Assembly: GCF_003751785.1 (NCBI RefSeq)
Contig: NZ_RKIE01000001.1
Span: 1,403,564-1,467,563, forward strand
Length of the DNA stretch: 64,000 nt
Direction of reading: 5' to 3'
Origin: Frigoribacterium sp. PhB160
GTDB taxonomy: Bacteria; Actinomycetota; Actinomycetes; Actinomycetales; Microbacteriaceae
The stretch's first letter is position 1; every line of letters starts with the position of its first letter. The position numbers and the translations under genes were made by a program. The notes under the pieces are model-generated. The model did not search any database. It saw nothing but the letters and a program-made list of their open reading frames with translations, and had not been told where the DNA came from. Positions 2,222 through 50,046 of this stretch are shown here, in pieces.

Positions 2222-3232
2222 CTACGGGAGCACGACCACCTGGGCACCGAAGACGAGGCCGGCCCCGAAGCCGATCTGCAGCGACAGGCCGCCGCTCAGC
2301 TCGGGGTGCTCCTCGAGCAGGCGGTGCGTCGCGAGCGGGATGCTGGCCGCCGACGTGTTGCCGGTGGTCGCGATGTCGCGGCCGATGACGACGGTCTCGG
2401 GCAGGCCCAGCTGCTTCGCGAACTCGTCGATGATGCGCATGTTGGCCTGGTGCGGCACGAACGCCGCGAGCTGGTCGGCCGTGACGCCGGCGCGCTCGAG
2501 GGCCTGCTTGGCGACCTTGACCATCTCCCAGACGGCCCAGCGGAAGACCGTGGGGCCCTCCTGGCGGAGGGTCGGCCAGGCGATCTCGCCGGCGCCGGCG
2601 CGGTACTCCTGCATGGTGTTCGTCATGCGGATGGCGTCCCACTTCGAGCCGTCCGAGCCCCACACCGTGGGGGCGATGCCGGGGGTGTCGCTCGCGCCGA
2701 CCACGGCGGCGCCGGCGCCGTCGCCGAGGAGGAACGAGATGGTGCGGTCGGTCGGGTCGACGAAGTCGCTGAGCTTCTCCGCCCCGACGACGAGCACGTA
2801 CTCGGCGAGGCCCGACTTGACGAAGGAGTCGGCCTGGGCGATGCCGTAGGCGTAGCCGGCGCACGCGGCGGAGATGTCGTAGGCGGCGGCCGGGTTGGCG
2901 CCGATCTTCTCGGCGAGGAGGGAGGCGACCGAGGGGGTGGCGACGCCGCCGCTGATCGTCGAGACGAGCACGACGCCGACCTGGTCGGGCCGGATGCCGG
3001 CCTTCTCGATGGCCTCGCGCGCCGCGGTCTCGGCGAGGTCGACGACGTGGACGTCGCTCGACGCGCGGACGCGTGTCACGACGCCCGTGCGCTGCTGGAT
3101 CCACTCGTCGGACGAGTCGATCGGCTCGACGATGTCGGCGTTCGGCACGACGACGTCGCCGCGGGCGGCGCCGATGCCGAGGATGCGGGTGAACTCCGCG
3201 CCGGCGTTCTGGTTGAGCGTGGGGGTGGTCAT
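2222..3232 (-). CDS. fabH: 3-oxoacyl-[acyl-carrier-protein] synthase III
   Basis: The 336-residue initiating condensing enzyme joins an acyl-CoA primer to malonyl-ACP. The Cys-His-Asn triad is visible: Cys124 in DISAACAGYAYG, His261 in PHQANMRIID and Asn292 in TTGNTSAAS. The open frame runs further upstream, but that part is a shadow of fabD. The true start is the ATG at 3232, which overlaps the fabD stop in an ATGA arrangement and follows a GGAG site at the end of fabD. This implies translational coupling. FabH primer choice (branched versus straight) is a likely control point for membrane branched-chain fatty acids, but specificity cannot be read here. Confidence 0.95.
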   Translation of the reverse strand: MTTPTLNQNAGAEFTRILGIGAARGDVVVPNADIVEPIDSSDEWIQQRTGVVTRVRASSDVHVVDLAETAAREAIEKAGIRPDQVGVVLVSTISGGVATPSVASLLAEKIGANPAAAYDISAACAGYAYGIAQADSFVKSGLAEYVLVVGAEKLSDFVDPTDRTISFLLGDGAGAAVVGASDTPGIAPTVWGSDGSKWDAIRMTNTMQEYRAGAGEIAWPTLRQEGPTVFRWAVWEMVKVAKQALERAGVTADQLAAFVPHQANMRIIDEFAKQLGLPETVVIGRDIATTGNTSAASIPLATHRLLEEHPELSGGLSLQIGFGAGLVFGAQVVVLP

Positions 3233-4149
3233 GCTGCTCCCTCGATGAGGTCGACGGCGGCCTGGAGGTCGTCGGGTGTCTTGACGGCGACGGAGGGGAC
3301 GCCCCTCAGCGCGCGCTTGGCGAGTCCGGTGAGCGCGCCGGCGGGGGCGAGCTCGACGATGCCCGTCACGCCCGCGGCGGCGAACGACTCCATGGTCGCG
3401 TCCCAGCGCACGGGGGAGGAGACCTGGCCGACCAGCAGCTCGACGAAGCGGCTGCCGGAGCCGACCTCGGTGCCGTCGTGGTTCGTCCAGAGGCGCAGGG
3501 AGGGGTCGTGGGTGGTGACGCCCGCGGCGGCGGAGCGGAGGCGCTCGACGGCGGGGGCCATGAAGCGGGTGTGGAAAGCCCCGGCGACCTGCAGCGGGAC
3601 GACGCGGGCCTTGGCAGGCGGCTCGGCGGCCAGGGCTGCGAGGGAGGCGAGCTCGCCCGCGACGACGACCTGGCCGCCGCCGTTGTGGTTGGCGGCCGTC
3701 AGGCCGTGCCGCTCGAGGGCGGCGGCCAGCTCGTCGGCGTCGCCGCCGAGGACGGCGCTCATGCCGGTCTCGACGAGCGCGGCGGCGTCGGCCATGGCGC
3801 GGCCCCGCTCGGCCACGAGGCGGACGGCGTCCTCGTCGTCGAGCACGCCGGCGACGGCGGCCGCGGTGAACTCGCCCACCGAGTGGCCGGCGACGCCGGC
3901 GACGAGCGACCGGTCGACGCGGGAGAACAGGGCGCGGGCCGTGAGGAGGCCCGCCGCGACGATGAGCGGCTGGGCGACGGCCGTGTCGCGGATCGTGTCG
4001 GCGTCGGACGTGGTGCCGTGGGCGACGAGGTCGATGCCGGAGGCGGCCGACAGCGTCTCGAGGTAGGCCCGCTGCTCGGGGTCCGCCGTCCACGGTTCGA
4101 GGAACGCGGGGGACTGGGAACCCTGGCCGGGCGCTACGACGACGATCAC
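3229..4149 (-). CDS. fabD: Malonyl-CoA:ACP transacylase
   Basis: Moves malonyl from CoA to ACP for chain elongation. From the chosen GTG start at 4149 the protein has 306 residues and begins VIVVVAPGQGSQSP, the usual N-terminus of the family. The GQGSQ oxyanion motif, nucleophile Ser90 in GHSVGEF and catalytic His193 in GAFHTRFM are present. A longer open frame reaches ATG 4200 but would add 17 residues unlike the family, so the GTG is preferred. The purine-rich GGAG just before it is closer than usual. The stop overlaps fabH by four bases. It is separated from fasR by 194 bases that probably hold the fab promoter. Confidence 0.9.
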   Translation of the reverse strand: MIVVVAPGQGSQSPAFLEPWTADPEQRAYLETLSAASGIDLVAHGTTSDADTIRDTAVAQPLIVAAGLLTARALFSRVDRSLVAGVAGHSVGEFTAAAVAGVLDDEDAVRLVAERGRAMADAAALVETGMSAVLGGDADELAAALERHGLTAANHNGGGQVVVAGELASLAALAAEPPAKARVVPLQVAGAFHTRFMAPAVERLRSAAAGVTTHDPSLRLWTNHDGTEVGSGSRFVELLVGQVSSPVRWDATMESFAAAGVTGIVELAPAGALTGLAKRALRGVPSVAVKTPDDLQAAVDLIEGAA

Positions 4150-4343
4150 TGCTCCATCATGCCCACTCCGAGCGCCCCCGTGGTGGAGCAACTCGACCAA
4201 AGATCAGCCAGACGCTTGTGGCTTCGCACAGCGCGGACCCTCGGGAGGCTCGACCCGGGCGGCGGGACGCACTCGCCGCGCCCGCCCCTCGCGCCTCCCG
4301 CCGTCGAGCGGGCCTGACCGGACGCGGCCGGTCACCGTCGCCG

Positions 4344-5588
4344 TCACCGTCGACGCGGTGCGTGCCCGTCGGTGTCGGCGATCGAGCCGAGGATGAGCGC
4401 CGACTGGAGGATCAGCGCTTCCCTCGCCCCCGTGGCGTCCCACCCGATGACGTCCGAGACGCGCTTGAGGCGATACCGGACCGTGTTGGGGTGCACGAAG
4501 AGCTCGCGGGCGGTCGCCTCGAGCGAACGGCCGTTGTCGAGGTAGCACCACAGGGTGGTGAGCAGCTCGGTCGAGTGGTTCTTGAGCGGCTTGTACACGC
4601 GGTTGACGAGGGTCGACCGGGCGACCGGGTCGCCGGCCAACGCCCGCTCGGGCAGCAGGTCGTCGGCGAGCACGGGGCGCGGCGCGTTCCGCCACGAGCG
4701 GGCGACGGCGAAGCCGGCGAGGGCGCCCTTGGCGCTCTTCGACGCGTCGACGAGGCTCGCGACCTCGTGGCCGAGCACGAGGTGGCCGTCGCCGAACCCG
4801 GGCTCGAGGGCCTTGGCGATCTCGCCGAACGAGAGGCGCGGGCTGCCGCTGCCCCCGGTCCCCTCGGCGTCGTCCTCCGACTGCTGCTCGGCACGCCCGA
4901 TGACGAGCACGAGGCGGCTGCCCTGCACGCCGATCAGCACGTCGGCCTCGAGGTGCCGGGCCGTTCGGCGCAGCATGTCGACGTCGAGCATCCGCGGGGC
5001 GGTCCCGACGAGCACCGAGACCTCGCCGTGACCGTGCCAGCCGAGCGCGGCGATCCGGCTCGGCAGCTCGTCGTCGTACTCGCCGCTGAGGATGGAGTCG
5101 ACGACGAGCGCCTCGAGGCGGGCGTCCCACAGGCCCCGTGCCTCGGCGGCACGGGCGTACACGTCGGCCGACGCGAAGGCGATCTCCCGCGAGTACAGGA
5201 GGATCGCCTCGCGGAGCGAGTCGTCGCCGTCCTTCATCCGCTCCTCGACGACCTCCACCGTGACGCGGATGAGCTGCAGTGTCTGCTGCAGGCTCACCGA
5301 GCGGAGGAGCTCCCGCGGAGCAGCGCCGAAGACGTCGGCGGCGATCCACGGGGTCGACTGGGGGTTGTCGAACCAGCTGATGAACGACGTGATGCCGGCC
5401 TGTGCGACGAGCCCGACGGCCGAGCGCCGCCCCGGCGGCATGTCGCCGTACCAGGGCAGCGTCTCCTCCAGGCGCTTGATCGTCGCCGTCGAGAGCTCGC
5501 CGGAGACCGTCCGCAACCACGCGAGCGTGCGCTCCTTGGTGGCGGCGGACGGTCCCGACGGCGAGGCGGGGACCCGCTCTGCGCTCAC
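4344..5588 (-). CDS. fasR: PucR/CdaR-type regulator, probable fatty acid synthesis activator FasR
   Basis: A 414-residue cytoplasmic regulator. The C-terminal helix-turn-helix is clear (about residues 365-395: ELFVHPNTVRYRLKRVSD), typical of the PucR HTH_30 domain, preceded by a long GGDEF-like/ligand domain without recognisable catalytic residues. A regulator of this type upstream of fabD activates the fabD-fabH-acpP-fabF operon in Streptomyces coelicolor (established knowledge), so the same role is inferred from identical position. It starts at GTG 5588, eight bases after the aceE stop, with GGAGAG inside the end of aceE, so it is probably co-transcribed with aceE. Confidence 0.85.
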   Translation of the reverse strand: MSAERVPASPSGPSAATKERTLAWLRTVSGELSTATIKRLEETLPWYGDMPPGRRSAVGLVAQAGITSFISWFDNPQSTPWIAADVFGAAPRELLRSVSLQQTLQLIRVTVEVVEERMKDGDDSLREAILLYSREIAFASADVYARAAEARGLWDARLEALVVDSILSGEYDDELPSRIAALGWHGHGEVSVLVGTAPRMLDVDMLRRTARHLEADVLIGVQGSRLVLVIGRAEQQSEDDAEGTGGSGSPRLSFGEIAKALEPGFGDGHLVLGHEVASLVDASKSAKGALAGFAVARSWRNAPRPVLADDLLPERALAGDPVARSTLVNRVYKPLKNHSTELLTTLWCYLDNGRSLEATARELFVHPNTVRYRLKRVSDVIGWDATGAREALILQSALILGSIADTDGHAPRRR

Positions 5589-43859: not shown

Positions 43860-44133
43860 GGCCCGTCACGCCCTCGACGCGGCGGCCCCCGGGCCCGTGG
43901 CGGGTGTCGTCCGCCCCCTCGAGAGCGTGCAATACTGGGACAAGGACCCGTTCACGTCCTCCCCGCGGCACACGGTCCCCGACCGAGCCCCGCGACGGAG
44001 ACTTGACATGGGTCCTAGTACTGCCCGAAAGGCCGGTGCGACCCGAGATCGGCACCTCCCTGCCGGTCCCGGCCCGGGGGAGCCGCGCGACAGCGACCCG
44101 CTCCGGCACGACTGAGAAGTGAAAGGTGTCCGC

Positions 44134-45399
44134 ATGGCTACTCGCAGCAAGGCGACCCCGGTCCCCGACGAGACCGTGACCGACGACGCGGCGCTCGCGA
44201 CCGAGTCCGCGACGACCGAGACCCCCGAGAAGGCGCCGGCGAAGGCCCCGGCCAAGCGCGCGGCGGCCAAGGCCCCGGCCAAGAAGGCGGCGCCCAAGAA
44301 GGTCCCCGCCGCCAAGGCCACGAAGGCGGTCGAGGAGGAGCCCGAGGCCGAGGCTCCGGAGGGCGACGTCGACGGCGACGGCGACTCCGAGACCCCCGCC
44401 GCGACGCCCGAGGCGCTGCCCACGGGCGCCCTGGTCATCTCGCAGGACGACGACGACGAGATGCCCGTCTACTCGACGACCATCACCGGAGCCACGGCCG
44501 ATCCCGTCAAGGACTACCTCAAGCAGATCGGCAAGGTCGCCCTGCTCAACGCCGCGGAGGAGGTCGAGCTCGCCATGCGCATCGAGGCGGGCCTCTTCGC
44601 CGAGGACAAGCTCTCGAACAGCACGGGCCTGAGCAAGGAGCTCGAGCGTGAGCTGCGCTGGGTCGCCCGCGACGGCCAGCGCGCCAAGAGCCACCTGCTC
44701 GGGGCCAACCTCCGGCTCGTGGTCAGCCTCGCGAAGCGCTACACGGGTCGCGGCATGCAGTTCCTCGACCTGATCCAGGAGGGCAACCTGGGCCTCATCC
44801 GTGCGGTCGAGAAGTTCGACTACACCAAGGGCTTCAAGTTCTCCACCTACGCCACGTGGTGGATCCGTCAGGCCATCACCCGTGCCATGGCCGACCAGGC
44901 CCGCACGATCCGCATCCCGGTGCACATGGTCGAGGTCATCAACAAGCTGGCCCGCGTCCAGCGCCAGATGCTGCAAGACCTGGGCCGCGAGCCGACGCCC
45001 GAGGAGCTGTCGCGCGAGCTCGACATGACGCCCGAGAAGGTCGTCGAGGTGCAGAAGTACGGCCGCGAGCCCATCTCGCTCCACACGCCCCTCGGCGAGG
45101 ACGGCGACAGCGAGTTCGGCGACCTCATCGAGGACACCGAGGCGGTCGTCCCGGCCGACGCCGTCGGCTTCACGATGCTGCAGAAGCAGCTGGAGTCGCT
45201 CCTCGACAGCCTCTCCGAGCGCGAGGCGGGCGTCATCCGCATGCGCTTCGGCCTCGGCGACGGCATGCCGAAGACGCTCGACCAGATCGGCGACACGTTC
45301 GGGGTCACCCGTGAGCGCATCCGCCAGATCGAGTCCAAGACGATGGCCAAGCTCCGCCACCCGTCCCGGTCGCAGTCGCTCCGCGACTACCTCGAGTAG
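44134..45399 (+). CDS. sigA: Principal RNA polymerase sigma factor (RpoD/SigA)
   Basis: The 421-residue housekeeping sigma factor. Residues 1-125 are a Lys/Ala/Pro-rich and acidic extension typical of actinobacteria. Region 1.2 begins near [13 protein letters not shown], region 2 carries [30 protein letters not shown] and [13 protein letters not shown], and region 4.2 has [23 protein letters not shown] 44134 is chosen over the in-frame GTG 44119 because GAAAGG (44121-44126) is spaced seven bases from it. The 274-base upstream region has TTGACA at 44003 but no matching -10 at the usual distance. Confidence 0.97.
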
Positions 45400-45403
45400 G
45401 CCC

Positions 45404-46663
45404 GTGAAGTACCTGGTGCCCGTCCTGGCGGGCCGACTCGTCCGTGCCGTGGCGCGCCTCCGTGGGGGCGGGTCGGCCTACCCGGGCCGCACCGTCCTCG
45501 CGCTCGCGCCCGACTTCCTGACCCACGTCGCCTCGCAGTTCGAGCAGGGCGTCGTGTTCGTCCTGGGCTCCAACGGCAAATCCACGACGACGATGATGCT
45601 CACCGAGACGCTGCGGGCCCACGGCCTGCGCGTCTTCACGAACCCGACGGGCGCCAACCTCCCGCAGGGGATCGCCTCGGCGTTCCTCCGCGAGGTGACG
45701 CCGCTCGGGCGCGTCAAGCACGACATCGGCGTCATCGAGGTCGACGAGGCGTTCGCGGTCGAGCTGACCCGGTCGCTCCACCCGTCGACGGTCCTGATGC
45801 TGAACGTCCAGGTCGATCAGCTCTACCGGTTCTTCGAGACCGAGCGCGTCGGCGCGATGATGACGGACACGGCGGCCCTCGCGACCGCCGCCGTCGTCAC
45901 GAACCGCGACGACCAGCACCTGGCACCGTACGAAGCGCGTCCCGGGCAGACGGTCACGCGGTTCGGCGCAGCCCCCGACGTCGTGGCCGCGGCGCCGAAC
46001 GGCCTGCAGAACGCGAACGACTTCACCCGGCAGGCGGACGCGACGCGCCAGGCCGACGCCGAGGTCGTCTCGCTGAGCGGCGACCGCGCGACGATCCGCG
46101 TCGGCGACGGCACGGTCGAGGTGCGCCTGCCCGCCCGGGGCCTGCACTACGCCGTCGACGCCGCCGCCGCGCTCCAGACCGCCTCGGTGGTCCTCGGGCG
46201 CCCGGTCGACCCCACGTCGGTCGCGCGCGCCTTCGACACGATGAAGCCGGCGTACGGCCGCGGCGAGCGGATGTCGCTCGGAGCCGACGAGGCCGAGTTC
46301 ATCATGTTCAAGAACGCGGCGAGCCTGCAGCTCAACCTCGACGCCCTGCCGCAGGGCGTCGAGCAGGTCATGCTGGCGATCGACGAGGGCACCCCCGACA
46401 TCTCGTGGATCTACGACATCGACTTCTCGCACCTCGACCACGTCGACGTGCTCGCGGGGGCCAAGGCCTGGCAGCTCGCCCTCCGCCTCGAGCACGAGGG
46501 CATCCCCGTGCACGTCATCGAGGAGGACATCGCGAAGGCGATCAGGCTCATGCGTGCCCTCCCGTCGCCGACCGACCACACCAAGCACTTCGTCACGAAC
46601 TACGAGCAGATGATGCTCGCGCGCCGCATCCTCGGCCACCCCGACCTGGAGAAGACCGCGTGA
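45404..46663 (+). CDS. murT: MurT-like Mur ligase lacking the zinc cysteines
   Basis: A 419-residue Mur-ligase-family protein. In other bacteria MurT with GatD amidates the alpha-carboxyl of D-Glu in lipid II. The ATP loop GSNGKSTTT is at 55-63, TNPTGANLPQGI follows near 85, and DISWIYDIDF near 330 matches the DxSWIWD motif. MurT normally carries a four-Cys zinc ribbon in its middle domain; this protein has no cysteine at all. The GTG at 45404 is four bases after the sigA stop. The stop overlaps gatD by four bases. Ligase chemistry is probably kept, but the amine donor may differ. Confidence 0.88.
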   Translation: MKYLVPVLAGRLVRAVARLRGGGSAYPGRTVLALAPDFLTHVASQFEQGVVFVLGSNGKSTTTMMLTETLRAHGLRVFTNPTGANLPQGIASAFLREVTPLGRVKHDIGVIEVDEAFAVELTRSLHPSTVLMLNVQVDQLYRFFETERVGAMMTDTAALATAAVVTNRDDQHLAPYEARPGQTVTRFGAAPDVVAAAPNGLQNANDFTRQADATRQADAEVVSLSGDRATIRVGDGTVEVRLPARGLHYAVDAAAALQTASVVLGRPVDPTSVARAFDTMKPAYGRGERMSLGADEAEFIMFKNAASLQLNLDALPQGVEQVMLAIDEGTPDISWIYDIDFSHLDHVDVLAGAKAWQLALRLEHEGIPVHVIEEDIAKAIRLMRALPSPTDHTKHFVTNYEQMMLARRILGHPDLEKTA

Positions 46664-47415
46664 GCGCCGACACCCTCCGACTCGTCCACCTCTACCCGGA
46701 GGAGCTCGGCGTCAGCGGCGACCGCGGAAACGTGACGACCCTGGTCGAGCGGGCGCGCCGCGCGGGCCTCGAGACCGAGGTCGTCGAGTACCGGGTCGGC
46801 GACGACGTGCCCACCGTGGCCGACGTCGTGCTGCTCGGCCACGGTCCCCTCTCGGGCGTCCGTGCCGTCAGCACCGACGCCCGGCGCCTCCTGCCGGCCC
46901 TCGAGGGCTTCGCCGCCTCCGGCGTGCCGGTCGTCGGAGTCGGGGGCGGCATGGAGCTGCTCACCCGCGGCGTGGTGACCCCCGAGGGCGAGACCGTCGA
47001 CGGCATCGGGTTCTTCGACGCGCTCGTGCGTCGCGGCGCCCCCCGCCGCACGAACTACTTCCAGGTCACGACCCGCTACGGCGGCGACGAGCTGACGCTC
47101 CTCGGCTTCGAGGACCACGCCGCGCACCTCGAGCTCGGACAGGGCGTCGAGGCGTTCGCCCGGGTCGTGCACGGCGGGGGCAACGGTACCGACGGCGCCG
47201 AGGGCGTCGTGCGGGGCGCCTCCTTCGGCACCCAGCTCAAGGGCCCGCTGCTGCCGCTCAACCCGGCCCTCAGCGACCGCGTGCTGCGCGCCGCGCTCAC
47301 GCGCCGCAGCATCTCGTACCACCCGGGGGAGGCGCACGCCAAGCTCGACGAGTACGCCGCCGCCTCGCGCCGCGTCATCCGCGAGAACCTCGAGCGCTCG
47401 TTCAAGGCCATGTGA
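46660..47415 (+). CDS. gatD: GatD-like amidotransferase homologue without catalytic Cys and His
   Basis: A 251-residue class I amidotransferase fold that aligns by eye with GatD (HLYPEELGVSGDRGNV at the start, GFEDH in the middle, KGPLLPLNP near 195). In active GatD the nucleophile sits in an ICGGYQ-type elbow; here it reads VGGGME, placing Gly95 at that position. The catalytic His of the YLHGPLLP-type motif is Lys194 in QLKGPLLP. No cysteine occurs anywhere. Glutaminase activity is therefore not expected. The GTGA overlap with murT and close fold suggest it still forms the MurT complex. Confidence 0.85.
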   Translation: MSADTLRLVHLYPEELGVSGDRGNVTTLVERARRAGLETEVVEYRVGDDVPTVADVVLLGHGPLSGVRAVSTDARRLLPALEGFAASGVPVVGVGGGMELLTRGVVTPEGETVDGIGFFDALVRRGAPRRTNYFQVTTRYGGDELTLLGFEDHAAHLELGQGVEAFARVVHGGGNGTDGAEGVVRGASFGTQLKGPLLPLNPALSDRVLRAALTRRSISYHPGEAHAKLDEYAAASRRVIRENLERSFKAM

Positions 47416-47496: not shown

Positions 47497-47724
47497 TCAG
47501 TCCTGGTGCAGGCGCGAGCTCTCGTCGAGCCACTCGACGGCGGCGGGCTGGAGCTTGTCCTTGACGGCGGCACCGTGGTGCGCGCAGAACAGGAGCTCGC
47601 CGCTCGTCATGGTGACGCGGACGTAGGCCTGGGCCCCGCAGCTGTCGCAACGGTCGGCGGCGCTGAGCTGGTAGCGGGAGCCGAGCTCGTCGACGGCGGT
47701 GTGGTCGGTGGCCATCTGAGTCAT
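47497..47724 (-). CDS. Small zinc-ribbon protein (DUF7455-like)
   Basis: A 75-residue protein. CDSCGAQAYVRV (about 26-37) and LFCAHHG (about 45-51) give a C-x2-C...C-x2-H set that can bind one zinc. Such small proteins are frequent near sigA and topoisomerase genes in actinobacteria; the function is unknown. The ATG at 47724 has GGAGGAG seven bases upstream; a longer in-frame extension is rejected for that reason. It diverges from the parE-like gene. Confidence 0.85.
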   Translation of the reverse strand: MTQMATDHTAVDELGSRYQLSAADRCDSCGAQAYVRVTMTSGELLFCAHHGAAVKDKLQPAAVEWLDESSRLHQD

Positions 47725-47938: not shown

Positions 47939-47952
47939 AGGAGCACACCATC
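47939..47952 (+). promoter_or_regulatory. Ribosome binding site followed by an AUC start codon (parE-like)
   Basis: AGGAG (47939-47943), a 6-base spacer and ATC (47950-47952), in frame with the ParE-like protein. Confidence 0.65.
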
Positions 47953-50046
47953 GCCACGTCCGACTACTCGGCCCGCCACCTGTCCGTGCTCGAGGGGCTC
48001 GAGGCCGTCCGCAAGCGCCCGGGCATGTACATCGGGTCGACCGACTCGCGCGGCCTCATGCACTGCCTGTGGGAGATCATCGACAACTCGGTCGACGAGG
48101 CCCTGGGCGGCCACGGCGACGCCATCGACGTCGTGCTGCACGCCGACGACAGCGTCGAGGTCCGCGACACGGCCCGCGGCATCCCCGTCGACATCGAGCC
48201 CAAGACCGGCCTGACCGGCGTCGAGGTCGTCTTCACGAAGCTTCACGCCGGCGGCAAGTTCGGCGGCGGCTCGTACGCCTCGTCGGGCGGCCTCCACGGC
48301 GTCGGCGCCTCCGTCGTCAACGCCCTCTCCGAACGGCTCGACGTCGAGGTCGACCGGAACGGCAAGACCTACGCCATGTCCTTCCGTCGCGGCGAGCCCG
48401 GCACGTTCGCCGACGAGGGCGAGCCGACGCCCGACGCCCCGTTCACGCCGTTCGTCTCGGGCAGCGTGCTGCGCGAGGTCGGCAAGGTCAAGAAGGCGGT
48501 CACGGGCACCCGCATCCGGTACTGGGCCGATCGCCAGATCTTCACGCGCGGTGCGAGCTTCCAGCCCGACGAGCTCTTCGGCCGCGCGCGCCAGACGGCG
48601 TTCCTCATCCCGGGCCTGTCGCTGCGCATCCGCGACGAGCGTCCGGGCTCGCTCACGGACGGCGGCTTCCCGCTCGAGAGCACGTTCCGCTTCGAGGGCG
48701 GCATCAGCGAGTTCGTCGAGTTCCTCGCGCCCGACACCGCGTTGACCGAGACCTGGCGCATGACCGGCACGGGCACCTACACCGAGACCGTCCCCGTGCT
48801 GACGTCCACCGGGGCCATGGTGGCCACCGAGCTCGACCGCGAGTGCGAGGTGGACATCGCCCTGCGGTGGGGGAGCGGCTACGAGACGGTCTTCCGCAGC
48901 TACGTCAACATCATCGCGACCCCGAAGGGCGGCTCCCACCAGGCGGGGTTCGAGGCCGGGCTCCTCAAGTTCCTCCGACAGCAGGTCGAGCAGAACGCCC
49001 GGCGGCTCAAGGTCGGCACCGACAAGATCGAGAAGGACGACGTCCTGGCCGGCCTGACGGCGGTGCTGACCGTGCGCCTCCCCGAGCCGCAGTTCGAGGG
49101 CCAGACGAAGGAGATCCTCGGCACGCCGGCCGTCCGCGCGATCGTCGCCAACGTCGTGGCCGCTCGGTTCGCCGAGCTCTTCGCTTCCCCGAAGCGGGAC
49201 GACAAGGCCCAGACCGCCGTCGTGCTCGACAAGGTGGTGGCCGAGATGAAGTCGCGGATCGCGGCGCGGGCCCACAAGGAGACGCAGCGGCGCAAGAACG
49301 CCCTCGAGAACTCGTCGCTGCCCGCGAAGCTCGTCGACTGCCGGTCGAACGACGTCGCGAACAGCGAGCTCTTCATCGTCGAGGGGGACTCGGCGCTCGG
49401 CACGGCCAAGCTGGCGCGCAACAGCGAGTTCCAGGCCTTGCTGCCGATCCGCGGCAAGATCCTCAACGTCCAGAAGGCCTCGGTCAGCGACATGCTCTCG
49501 AACGTCGAGTGCGCGTCGATCATCCAGGTGCTCGGGGCCGGCTCCGGTCGCTCCTTCGACCTCGACACGGCCCGCTACGGCAAGGTCATCATCATGAGCG
49601 ACGCCGACGTCGACGGCGCCCACATCCGCACCCTCCTGCTGACGCTCTTCTTCCGCTACATGCGCCCGATGATCGAGGAGGGGCGCGTCTTCGCCGCCGT
49701 CCCGCCGCTGCATCGCGTGGTCGTGGTGCACGCCGGCAGCAAGCCGAACGAGACCATCTACACGTACTCCGAGGACGAGCTGAAGAAGGTGCTCGCGGGT
49801 CTCAAGCGCAGCGGCAAGAAGTACCAGGACCCGATCCAGCGCTACAAGGGCCTCGGCGAGATGGACGCCGAACAGCTCGCGACGACGACGATGGACCGCC
49901 ACGGGCGGATGCTCCGCCGTGTGAAGGTCGACGACGCCGAGGCGGCGGCCCGGGTGTTCGAGCTGCTCATGGGCAACGACGTGGCTCCACGCAAGGAGTT
50001 CATCATCGACGGCGCCGGCCTCAGCCGGGACCGCATCGACGTCTGA
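47950..50046 (+). CDS. parE: Type IIA topoisomerase subunit B, ParE-like, with probable AUC start
   Basis: A 698-residue ATPase subunit that, with the ParC-like partner, passes DNA strands. GHKL ATPase motifs are visible: EIIDNSVDEA (43-52), DTARGIPVD, and GGLHGVGASVVN; the toprim domain has EGDSALG and DADVDGAHIRTLLLT. The N-terminus reads (I)ATSDYSARHLSVLEGLEAV, as far as I recall the usual family start. The start is ATC 47950, preceded by AGGAG six bases upstream. No canonical start lies between the -10 at 47885 and this point; the next one is inside the conserved region. It converges on the parC-like gene. Confidence 0.9.
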   Translation: MATSDYSARHLSVLEGLEAVRKRPGMYIGSTDSRGLMHCLWEIIDNSVDEALGGHGDAIDVVLHADDSVEVRDTARGIPVDIEPKTGLTGVEVVFTKLHAGGKFGGGSYASSGGLHGVGASVVNALSERLDVEVDRNGKTYAMSFRRGEPGTFADEGEPTPDAPFTPFVSGSVLREVGKVKKAVTGTRIRYWADRQIFTRGASFQPDELFGRARQTAFLIPGLSLRIRDERPGSLTDGGFPLESTFRFEGGISEFVEFLAPDTALTETWRMTGTGTYTETVPVLTSTGAMVATELDRECEVDIALRWGSGYETVFRSYVNIIATPKGGSHQAGFEAGLLKFLRQQVEQNARRLKVGTDKIEKDDVLAGLTAVLTVRLPEPQFEGQTKEILGTPAVRAIVANVVAARFAELFASPKRDDKAQTAVVLDKVVAEMKSRIAARAHKETQRRKNALENSSLPAKLVDCRSNDVANSELFIVEGDSALGTAKLARNSEFQALLPIRGKILNVQKASVSDMLSNVECASIIQVLGAGSGRSFDLDTARYGKVIIMSDADVDGAHIRTLLLTLFFRYMRPMIEEGRVFAAVPPLHRVVVVHAGSKPNETIYTYSEDELKKVLAGLKRSGKKYQDPIQRYKGLGEMDAEQLATTTMDRHGRMLRRVKVDDAEAAARVFELLMGNDVAPRKEFIIDGAGLSRDRIDV

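Follow-up and report, generated by a model that had tools for sequence, protein, structure and literature searches.

Why would a bacterium preserve a glutamine amidotransferase whose glutaminase can apparently no longer work? The question is raised by a murT–gatD gene pair of Frigoribacterium sp. PhB160 (family Microbacteriaceae), located in the stretch of 64,000 nucleotides that we analysed and call the window (assembly GCF_003751785.1, contig NZ_RKIE01000001.1, forward-strand positions 1,403,564 to 1,467,563). Judged by its residues, the GatD of this pair has a dead glutaminase, and the pair as a whole is maintained by selection. We favor, with a probability of roughly 0.6, the view that the pair serves as an amino-acid ligase in the building of group-B peptidoglycan and that the chromosomal slot holding it is a cross-bridge cassette, a reaction suggested by the slot, by the replacement of the pair in relatives and by the neighbouring genes.

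Group-B peptidoglycan, which marks the whole of this actinobacterial family, is cross-linked through D-Glu and not through residue 3 of the stem peptide. In B1-type bridges a glycine precedes the diamino acid, and the B2-beta bridge made of D-Lys consists of one residue.

Catalytic Residues of GatD and MurT

When the GatD of the window was aligned to the solved GatD of Staphylococcus aureus (5n9m/6gs2), Gly95 was found in place of the Cys of ICGGYQ and Lys194 in place of the His of YLHGPILP, exactly as a first-pass annotation made from the sequence had proposed. Two papers report that either of the GatD mutations C94G and C94S abolishes amidation in S. aureus (PMC6113224, PMC6085368). By these rules the glutaminase of the window GatD is predicted to be dead. 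The damage extends beyond the nucleophile. A residue-conservation alignment (67 rows) has 14 columns that are invariant (at least 90%) in 23 active GatDs and lost in at least 90% of 35 GatDs of the types that we label W (the window's own) and S; they include Y19, G59, G61 and Q63 of the GGGQD loop, C95, Y98, and Y192. Twelve of the 14 were also gone in a third and separate type, D (9 rows).

A residue check bore out the further claim that neither protein contains any cysteine, and MurT therefore lacks the four-Cys ribbon. The ligase machinery of MurT is a different matter. At least 90% of the W and S rows retain K59, N80, N85, E112, D114, E115, N134, D138, Q139, R142, R286, N304, and D332, the last corresponding, by residue count in the alignment, to S. 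aureus D349. Thus both features expected of a MurT, the triad Asp (D332) and the P-loop Lys (K59), are present, as are the residues with which a Mur-type ligase handles ATP and the acceptor carboxylate (K59, N85, E112, D114, E115, N134, and R286). In Streptococcus pneumoniae, activity is reported to require the residues that correspond to K59, to N85 and to the pair D114/E115 (PMC6085368). The reported conservation of the ATP loop is accordingly upheld by K59, and the coordinates confirm the four-base overlap between the two genes.

Two regions of the W- and S-type MurTs have changed. V, I, or T now stands where S. pneumoniae has R135, a residue that closes the gate in one model of PMC6085368. 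Next to the triad Asp, the DNADD motif is altered too; the S. aureus authors discuss this motif in connection with the stem-peptide lysine (PMC6113224).

Pfam matches in the window were MurT_C and Mur_ligase_M for MurT and GATase_3 for GatD, and the AlphaFold models of the single subunits had mean pLDDT values of 90.4 and 93.8, respectively.

Selection, Distribution, and Descent

A scan of named genomes with a single protein as the query returned only Frigoribacterium (11 loci, identity up to 92%), and all 11 loci were Cys-less. Over 66 pairs drawn from 12 Frigoribacterium sequences, the median dN/dS was 0.131 for murT (range 0.026–0.185) and 0.191 for gatD (range 0.055–0.314). Both genes are under purifying selection, and the Cys-less state is not a product of chance or decay. 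A second, canonical murT–gatD pair, which the first-pass annotation had named as the finding most damaging to its idea, did not turn up in the window's own genome (G000, 99.97% complete): searches with MurT_C and with a profile of the lineage gave one match each, the latter at E ≤ 1e-10.

Among 249 sampled genomes of the family, PF08353 detected MurT in 171, and a profile built from the window's lineage matched 213 at E ≤ 1e-10. Eleven of the latter matches, weaker than 1e-20, were treated as other Mur ligases, leaving 202 genomes with some MurT, active ones included. In a sample of 218 genomes from the order, MurT of lineage grade (E < 1e-130) occurred in 9 of 16 family members and in none of 202 other genomes (best value 8.8e-122). 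All 23 pairs fetched from genomes of the order outside the family retained both Cys and His.

The three kinds of Cys-less pair (W, S, and D are labels of this analysis) do not all group together in the maximum-likelihood MurT tree. W and S form one clade (support 99/98) beside active pairs, and D forms another (100/99). In a further tree, from which six long-branch rows were left out, none of 200 bootstrap trees had all Cys-less pairs in a single clade, yet the AU test did not reject such a clade (p 0.078). Two separate losses are thus favored over a single origin, albeit not shown. The D-type pairs have no His at the GatD site and retain the four ribbon Cys; since dead pairs can keep them, we rejected the idea that losing the ribbon signals repurposing.

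Active and dead (slot) pairs coexist in five genomes (G054, G124, G209, G163, and G066), which argues that the dead pair has a job of its own.

A Slot Between sigA and parE

The pair directly follows a gene that we take from its sequence to be sigA, the primary sigma factor, and precedes a small, presumably DUF7455-like gene and a presumptive parE/gyrB-like topoisomerase gene. This placement is general: 42 of the 44 Cys-less pairs with examined flanks occupy the same slot, with sigA immediately ahead of them and parE behind. The 42 comprise 38 of 40 loci fetched around MurT matches, together with L125, L152, L178, and the window; in the other two loci (L044 and L070), murT is not directly after sigA. 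The Cys-less state was found in 41 of the 42 slot pairs, the gatD of the remaining one (L080) being too divergent for alignment, and the nucleophile-site Cys was absent in all 41 that could be aligned.

Active pairs, i.e., those with Cys and His, are located elsewhere in 19 of 19 cases (12 from the family, 7 from other families), with no slot gene adjoining. The flanked stretches of the 12 family loci measured 3.2–8.3 kb, one being only 3.2 kb. Downstream of sigA in 13 loci from other families, there was no match to murT, gatD, CofE-like, racemase, or ATP-grasp genes; parE was in view in nine of these loci, and sigA, DUF7455, and parE were closely ordered in five. Within the sampled order, therefore, the slot is filled only in this family.

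We also located sigA in 32 genomes of the family, mostly without MurT, and fetched 20 of these loci. Fourteen slots held a CofE-like gene (12 of them with an ATPgrasp_ST-like gene), five were empty, and one held murT–gatD and racemase genes. The last (L152, from G015), whose MurT belongs to the clade of W and S, comes from a genome of 0.9 Mb, the GC content of the locus being 46.6%; its slot consists of murT, a Cys-less gatD, and a racemase pair.

As to the active pairs, one with intact Cys and His (L158) lies beside a vanY-like gene on a Leifsonia shinshuensis plasmid (NZ_CP043642.1). Strains of the family may thus exchange active murT–gatD pairs. CofE-like records were absent among the plasmids searched, and this Leifsonia plasmid was the one that carried an active pair.

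A CofE-Like Protein as the Alternative Filling

The CofE-like slot protein has 230–238 residues and, in the one case scanned, matched PF01996. Its score against the F420_cofE equivalog was 30.7 bits, far under the cut-off of 180.65, and it is therefore not shown to be CofE. Eighteen of the 19 strong CofE-like loci fetched had the gene directly after sigA (in L177, sigA was not seen), and murT was in view in none of the 19. An ATP-grasp gene accompanied it in 16 of 18 CofE slots, as against 4 of 42 murT slots.

The two fillings are nearly exclusive genome by genome. A strong CofE-like gene (E < 1e-100) was present in 37 of the 249 family genomes, and none of these 37 had MurT (E < 1e-20); a further 202 had MurT without a strong CofE-like gene, and 10 had neither. 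With kinship ignored, Fisher's exact test gave p 2.6e-35. In the order sample, G340, G421, G445, and G456 likewise had the CofE-like gene without MurT. Both states occur within eleven genera (g7, g9, g13, g53, g57, g58, g74, g76, g79, g84, and g85), so the exchange must have occurred repeatedly.

Outside the family, CofE-like matches (E 1e-47 to 1e-61) fell in long frames of 809–1016 residues, in 17 genomes of three families. One such frame (L179, from G259; positions 2938–5586 of its locus) encodes 882 residues with asparagine-synthase domains, the CofE-like stretch lying at the C-terminal end.

Racemases and Other Neighbours of the Slot Ligases

Racemase genes were found in 10 of the 42 slots with murT and in 11 of the 18 with a CofE-like gene; in two further murT loci (L090 and L091), a racemase half stood at the edge of the locus. 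Alignment of the active-site residues showed that the two genes of each pair encode complementary half-enzymes in all 17 complete slot pairs (L047, L055, L060, L071–L073, L079, L125, L133, L134, L140, L142, L144, L145, L148, L150, and L152; the pairs of L175 and L176 are outside this count). One half keeps the PLP lysine and has no catalytic tyrosine, the segment being deleted in the alignment in 16 of 17; the partner lacks the lysine there but keeps the tyrosine of GVSY. The L143 locus ends within the lysine half, and L082 showed a lysine half alone. Each active site of alanine racemase combines a lysine from one subunit with a tyrosine from its partner, so a heterodimer of these halves would have one complete site and no more. 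In the genome of the window, two tandem racemases lie outside the slot, and each of them has both residues.

Other neighbours also pointed to the wall. A CofE slot (L151, from G020) held an EctB-type diaminobutyrate transaminase over the NCBIfam cut-off, and another (L176, from G225) showed a run of CofE, two racemase matches, a diaminobutyrate-transaminase-like gene, two ATP-grasp genes, and a further racemase match. A lipid II flippase of the MurJ family, over its cut-off, was encoded inside the CofE slot of L143 (from G084), at positions 3109–4695 of the locus.

Wall Types in the Literature

PMC7033078 lists the genus Frigoribacterium as D-Lys, type B2-beta; nine of the ten taxa tabulated there are of B types and one is unknown. 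Diaminobutyrate is likewise a wall amino acid of the family, since PMC4156110 describes D-Ala-D-Dab and Gly-D-Glu peptides from Rhodoluna. A literature search found no paper naming an enzyme for attachment of the group-B bridge, nor anything on the genes of the sigA–parE slot, on CofE or ATP-grasp proteins in peptidoglycan, or on a heterodimeric alanine racemase; most subscription journals lie outside the coverage of this search, so that its silence is weak evidence. The sections seen of a Bulleidia paper that mentions MurT (PMC12786226) and of a peptidoglycan review (PMC4015370) contain nothing on the addition of a group-B bridge.

Proposed Mechanism and Alternative Explanations

In the reaction that we propose, MurT would bind ATP and a precursor carrying the D-Glu of the stem peptide and would phosphorylate the alpha-carboxyl of that D-Glu to an acyl phosphate. 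An amino acid, bound where Mur ligases bind the incoming residue, would then form the amide, with no ammonia derived from glutamine. In Frigoribacterium this amino acid is most likely D-Lys. GatD would hydrolyze no glutamine and would have been kept since MurT needs it structurally. The cassette in the sigA–parE slot would thus come in two versions: the MurT/GatD pair, or a CofE-like ligase that an ATP-grasp protein usually accompanies. On the larger proposition, namely that the slot is the missing group-B cassette, containing a ligase for (D-)diamino acids that is either MurT with a dead GatD or CofE-like, repeatedly swapped and often placed beside a divided racemase working only as a heterodimer, our opinion is evenly balanced.

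The first-pass annotation had left the choice between a diamino acid and free ammonia. MurT could amidate the alpha-carboxyl of D-Glu with ammonia that is free or supplied by another glutaminase, GatD being a relic scaffold; the use of free ammonia is common in glutamine amidotransferases, and MurT keeps the ATP and carboxylate machinery and, in the W and S types, the triad Asp. The coexistence of dead and active pairs in five genomes argues otherwise, as do the racemase and diaminobutyrate-aminotransferase neighbours and the fact that an amidated carboxyl would compete with the group-B bridge. What speaks most strongly for an amino acid is that in relatives the slot has passed to a CofE-like ligase instead of a second glutaminase. 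Amidation by free ammonia is hence the less likely reaction, and an ammonia-dependent amidase of either kind seems to us unlikely. A glycine or other small amino acid might instead be the first residue added by the pair, a second enzyme adding the diamino acid. This would suit the order of residues in B1-type bridges, and the joint presence of a ligase and an ATP-grasp gene in several slots would fit two additions. But the window's genome has no ATPgrasp_ST match, Frigoribacterium is listed with the one-residue D-Lys bridge, and a D-amino acid is suggested by the racemase genes that accompany murT in ten slots, so that we consider a glycine-first route rather unlikely.

The target may also not be peptidoglycan at all, the slot genes modifying a polyglutamate, a cofactor, or a secondary polymer and their link to group B being a coincidence of family membership. 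CofE does belong to the synthesis of cofactor F420, in one genome CofE-like, MurT and GatD genes stand together away from the slot, and 10 of 249 genomes do without either ligase. Against this stand the MurJ gene in one slot, the retained fold and residues of MurT, the presence of either ligase in most genomes of the family, and the confinement of lineage-grade MurT to it in the order sample; such a target is quite improbable. As for a non-catalytic or decaying remnant, the glutaminase residues are gone, but purifying selection and the conservation of P-loop and slot throughout the family make this highly improbable.

Several observations weigh against the pair being a bridge ligase. No racemase is in view in 32 of 42 murT slots, and the slot survey found neither a racemase nor an ATP-grasp gene in the window's own slot; a genome-wide search of G000 for ATPgrasp_ST was equally negative. 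The slot is empty in three genomes with canonical pairs only (G003, G014, and G024), and the ten genomes with neither MurT nor a CofE-like gene include G019 and G051, where sigA, DUF7455, and parE are closed up. The slot is therefore not the sole route to the wall of the family. At a looser cut-off, both ligases are present in 3 of the 40 genomes with a CofE-like match, through weak CofE-like matches (1e-37 to 1e-47) that accompany a strong MurT in G147 and a weak one in G053 and G123. In G053 (L070/L181), the one of these that was fetched, a divergent CofE-like gene has a divergent MurT and a Cys-less GatD as neighbours, and the set lies away from the slot. Many W- and S-type GatDs retain the catalytic His. 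Four of the five genomes with coexisting pairs are drafts (90–97% complete) in which mixing is possible, G163 being 100% complete with 1% contamination, and G220 (5% contamination) has two different dead pairs. Finally, the link between slot and wall type rests on family membership, not on wall subtypes.

On balance, the combination of a dead glutaminase, a living MurT, and a group-B connection, which had been read from this locus alone, gained from the slot, the CofE-like replacement, and the racemase and transaminase neighbours; the notion of a single odd pair did not last, and a family-wide cassette has taken its place. Should the bridge-ligase reading hold, it would supply a small, concrete set of genes for attaching the group-B bridge and an example of an amidotransferase apparently turned peptide ligase by losing its ammonia source. 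A divided racemase has come to light beside the slot ligases. If slot content tracks the bridge residue, wall type would become predictable from genome sequence.

Features of the Window

The genes and codons discussed above are collected in Table 1.

Table 1. Positions of the murT–gatD pair, of diagnostic codons, and of the genes bordering the slot
Feature	Position in the window	Strand	Remarks
murT-like Mur ligase	45404..46663	+	419 aa; GTG start; no Cys; P-loop and carboxylate/Mg2+ residues retained
gatD-like protein, predicted dead glutaminase site	46660..47415	+	251 aa; GTG start; no Cys
GatD Gly95 codon	46942..46944	+	nucleophile (Cys) position
GatD Lys194 codon	47239..47241	+	catalytic His position
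MurT Lys59 codon	45578..45580	+	P-loop lysine (GSNGKS), retained
MurT Asp332 codon	46397..46399	+	S. aureus D349 equivalent, retained in W and S types
Left border gene of the slot	44119..45399	+	presumably sigA; stops 4 bases short of murT
Small right border gene	47497..47724	-	presumably DUF7455-like; start estimated
Second right border gene	47950..50046	+	presumably parE/gyrB-like; start approximate

Comparison with Known Systems

The closest known system is the lipid II isoglutaminyl synthase MurT/GatD, whose folds are shared by both subunits of the window pair (S. aureus, 6gs2/6h5e/7q8e; S. pneumoniae, 6fqb; Streptococcus pyogenes, 9sq9/9sqj). In Foldseek searches with the AlphaFold models, the best matches were nine GatD chains, with TM scores by query of 0.79–0.87, and MurT chains, with scores of 0.49–0.67. 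The pair is like this synthase in gene order, overlap, the ATP and carboxylate residues of MurT, and the triad Asp. It differs in that GatD is without the catalytic Cys and His and has lost the GGGQD glutamine loop, and in that MurT is without the Cys ribbon and has an altered DNADD motif and gate Arg. The NCBIfam equivalog cut-offs were missed by far (102.1 versus 800 bits for MurT and 69.4 versus 400 bits for GatD). By predicted fold and residues, then, the pair is a relative of MurT/GatD in which the defining glutaminase site is missing.

The next Foldseek matches of the window MurT were MurF, MurC, MurD, MurE, and the pseudomurein ligases pMurC and pMurE. In all these Mur ligases, the acyl phosphate of a stem carboxyl is attacked by an amino acid, just as the favored reading would have it for the window pair, which differs from MurC–MurF in its MurT-type N-terminus and its GatD-like partner gene. 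The CofE-type ligases (F420-0:gamma-glutamyl ligase, PF01996) belong to a different protein family, and a PF01996 protein fills the same slot in relatives. The slot racemases, in turn, match Ala_racemase_N and Ala_racemase_C as Alr does, but are split over two genes, one of which has lost the PLP lysine and the other the catalytic tyrosine.

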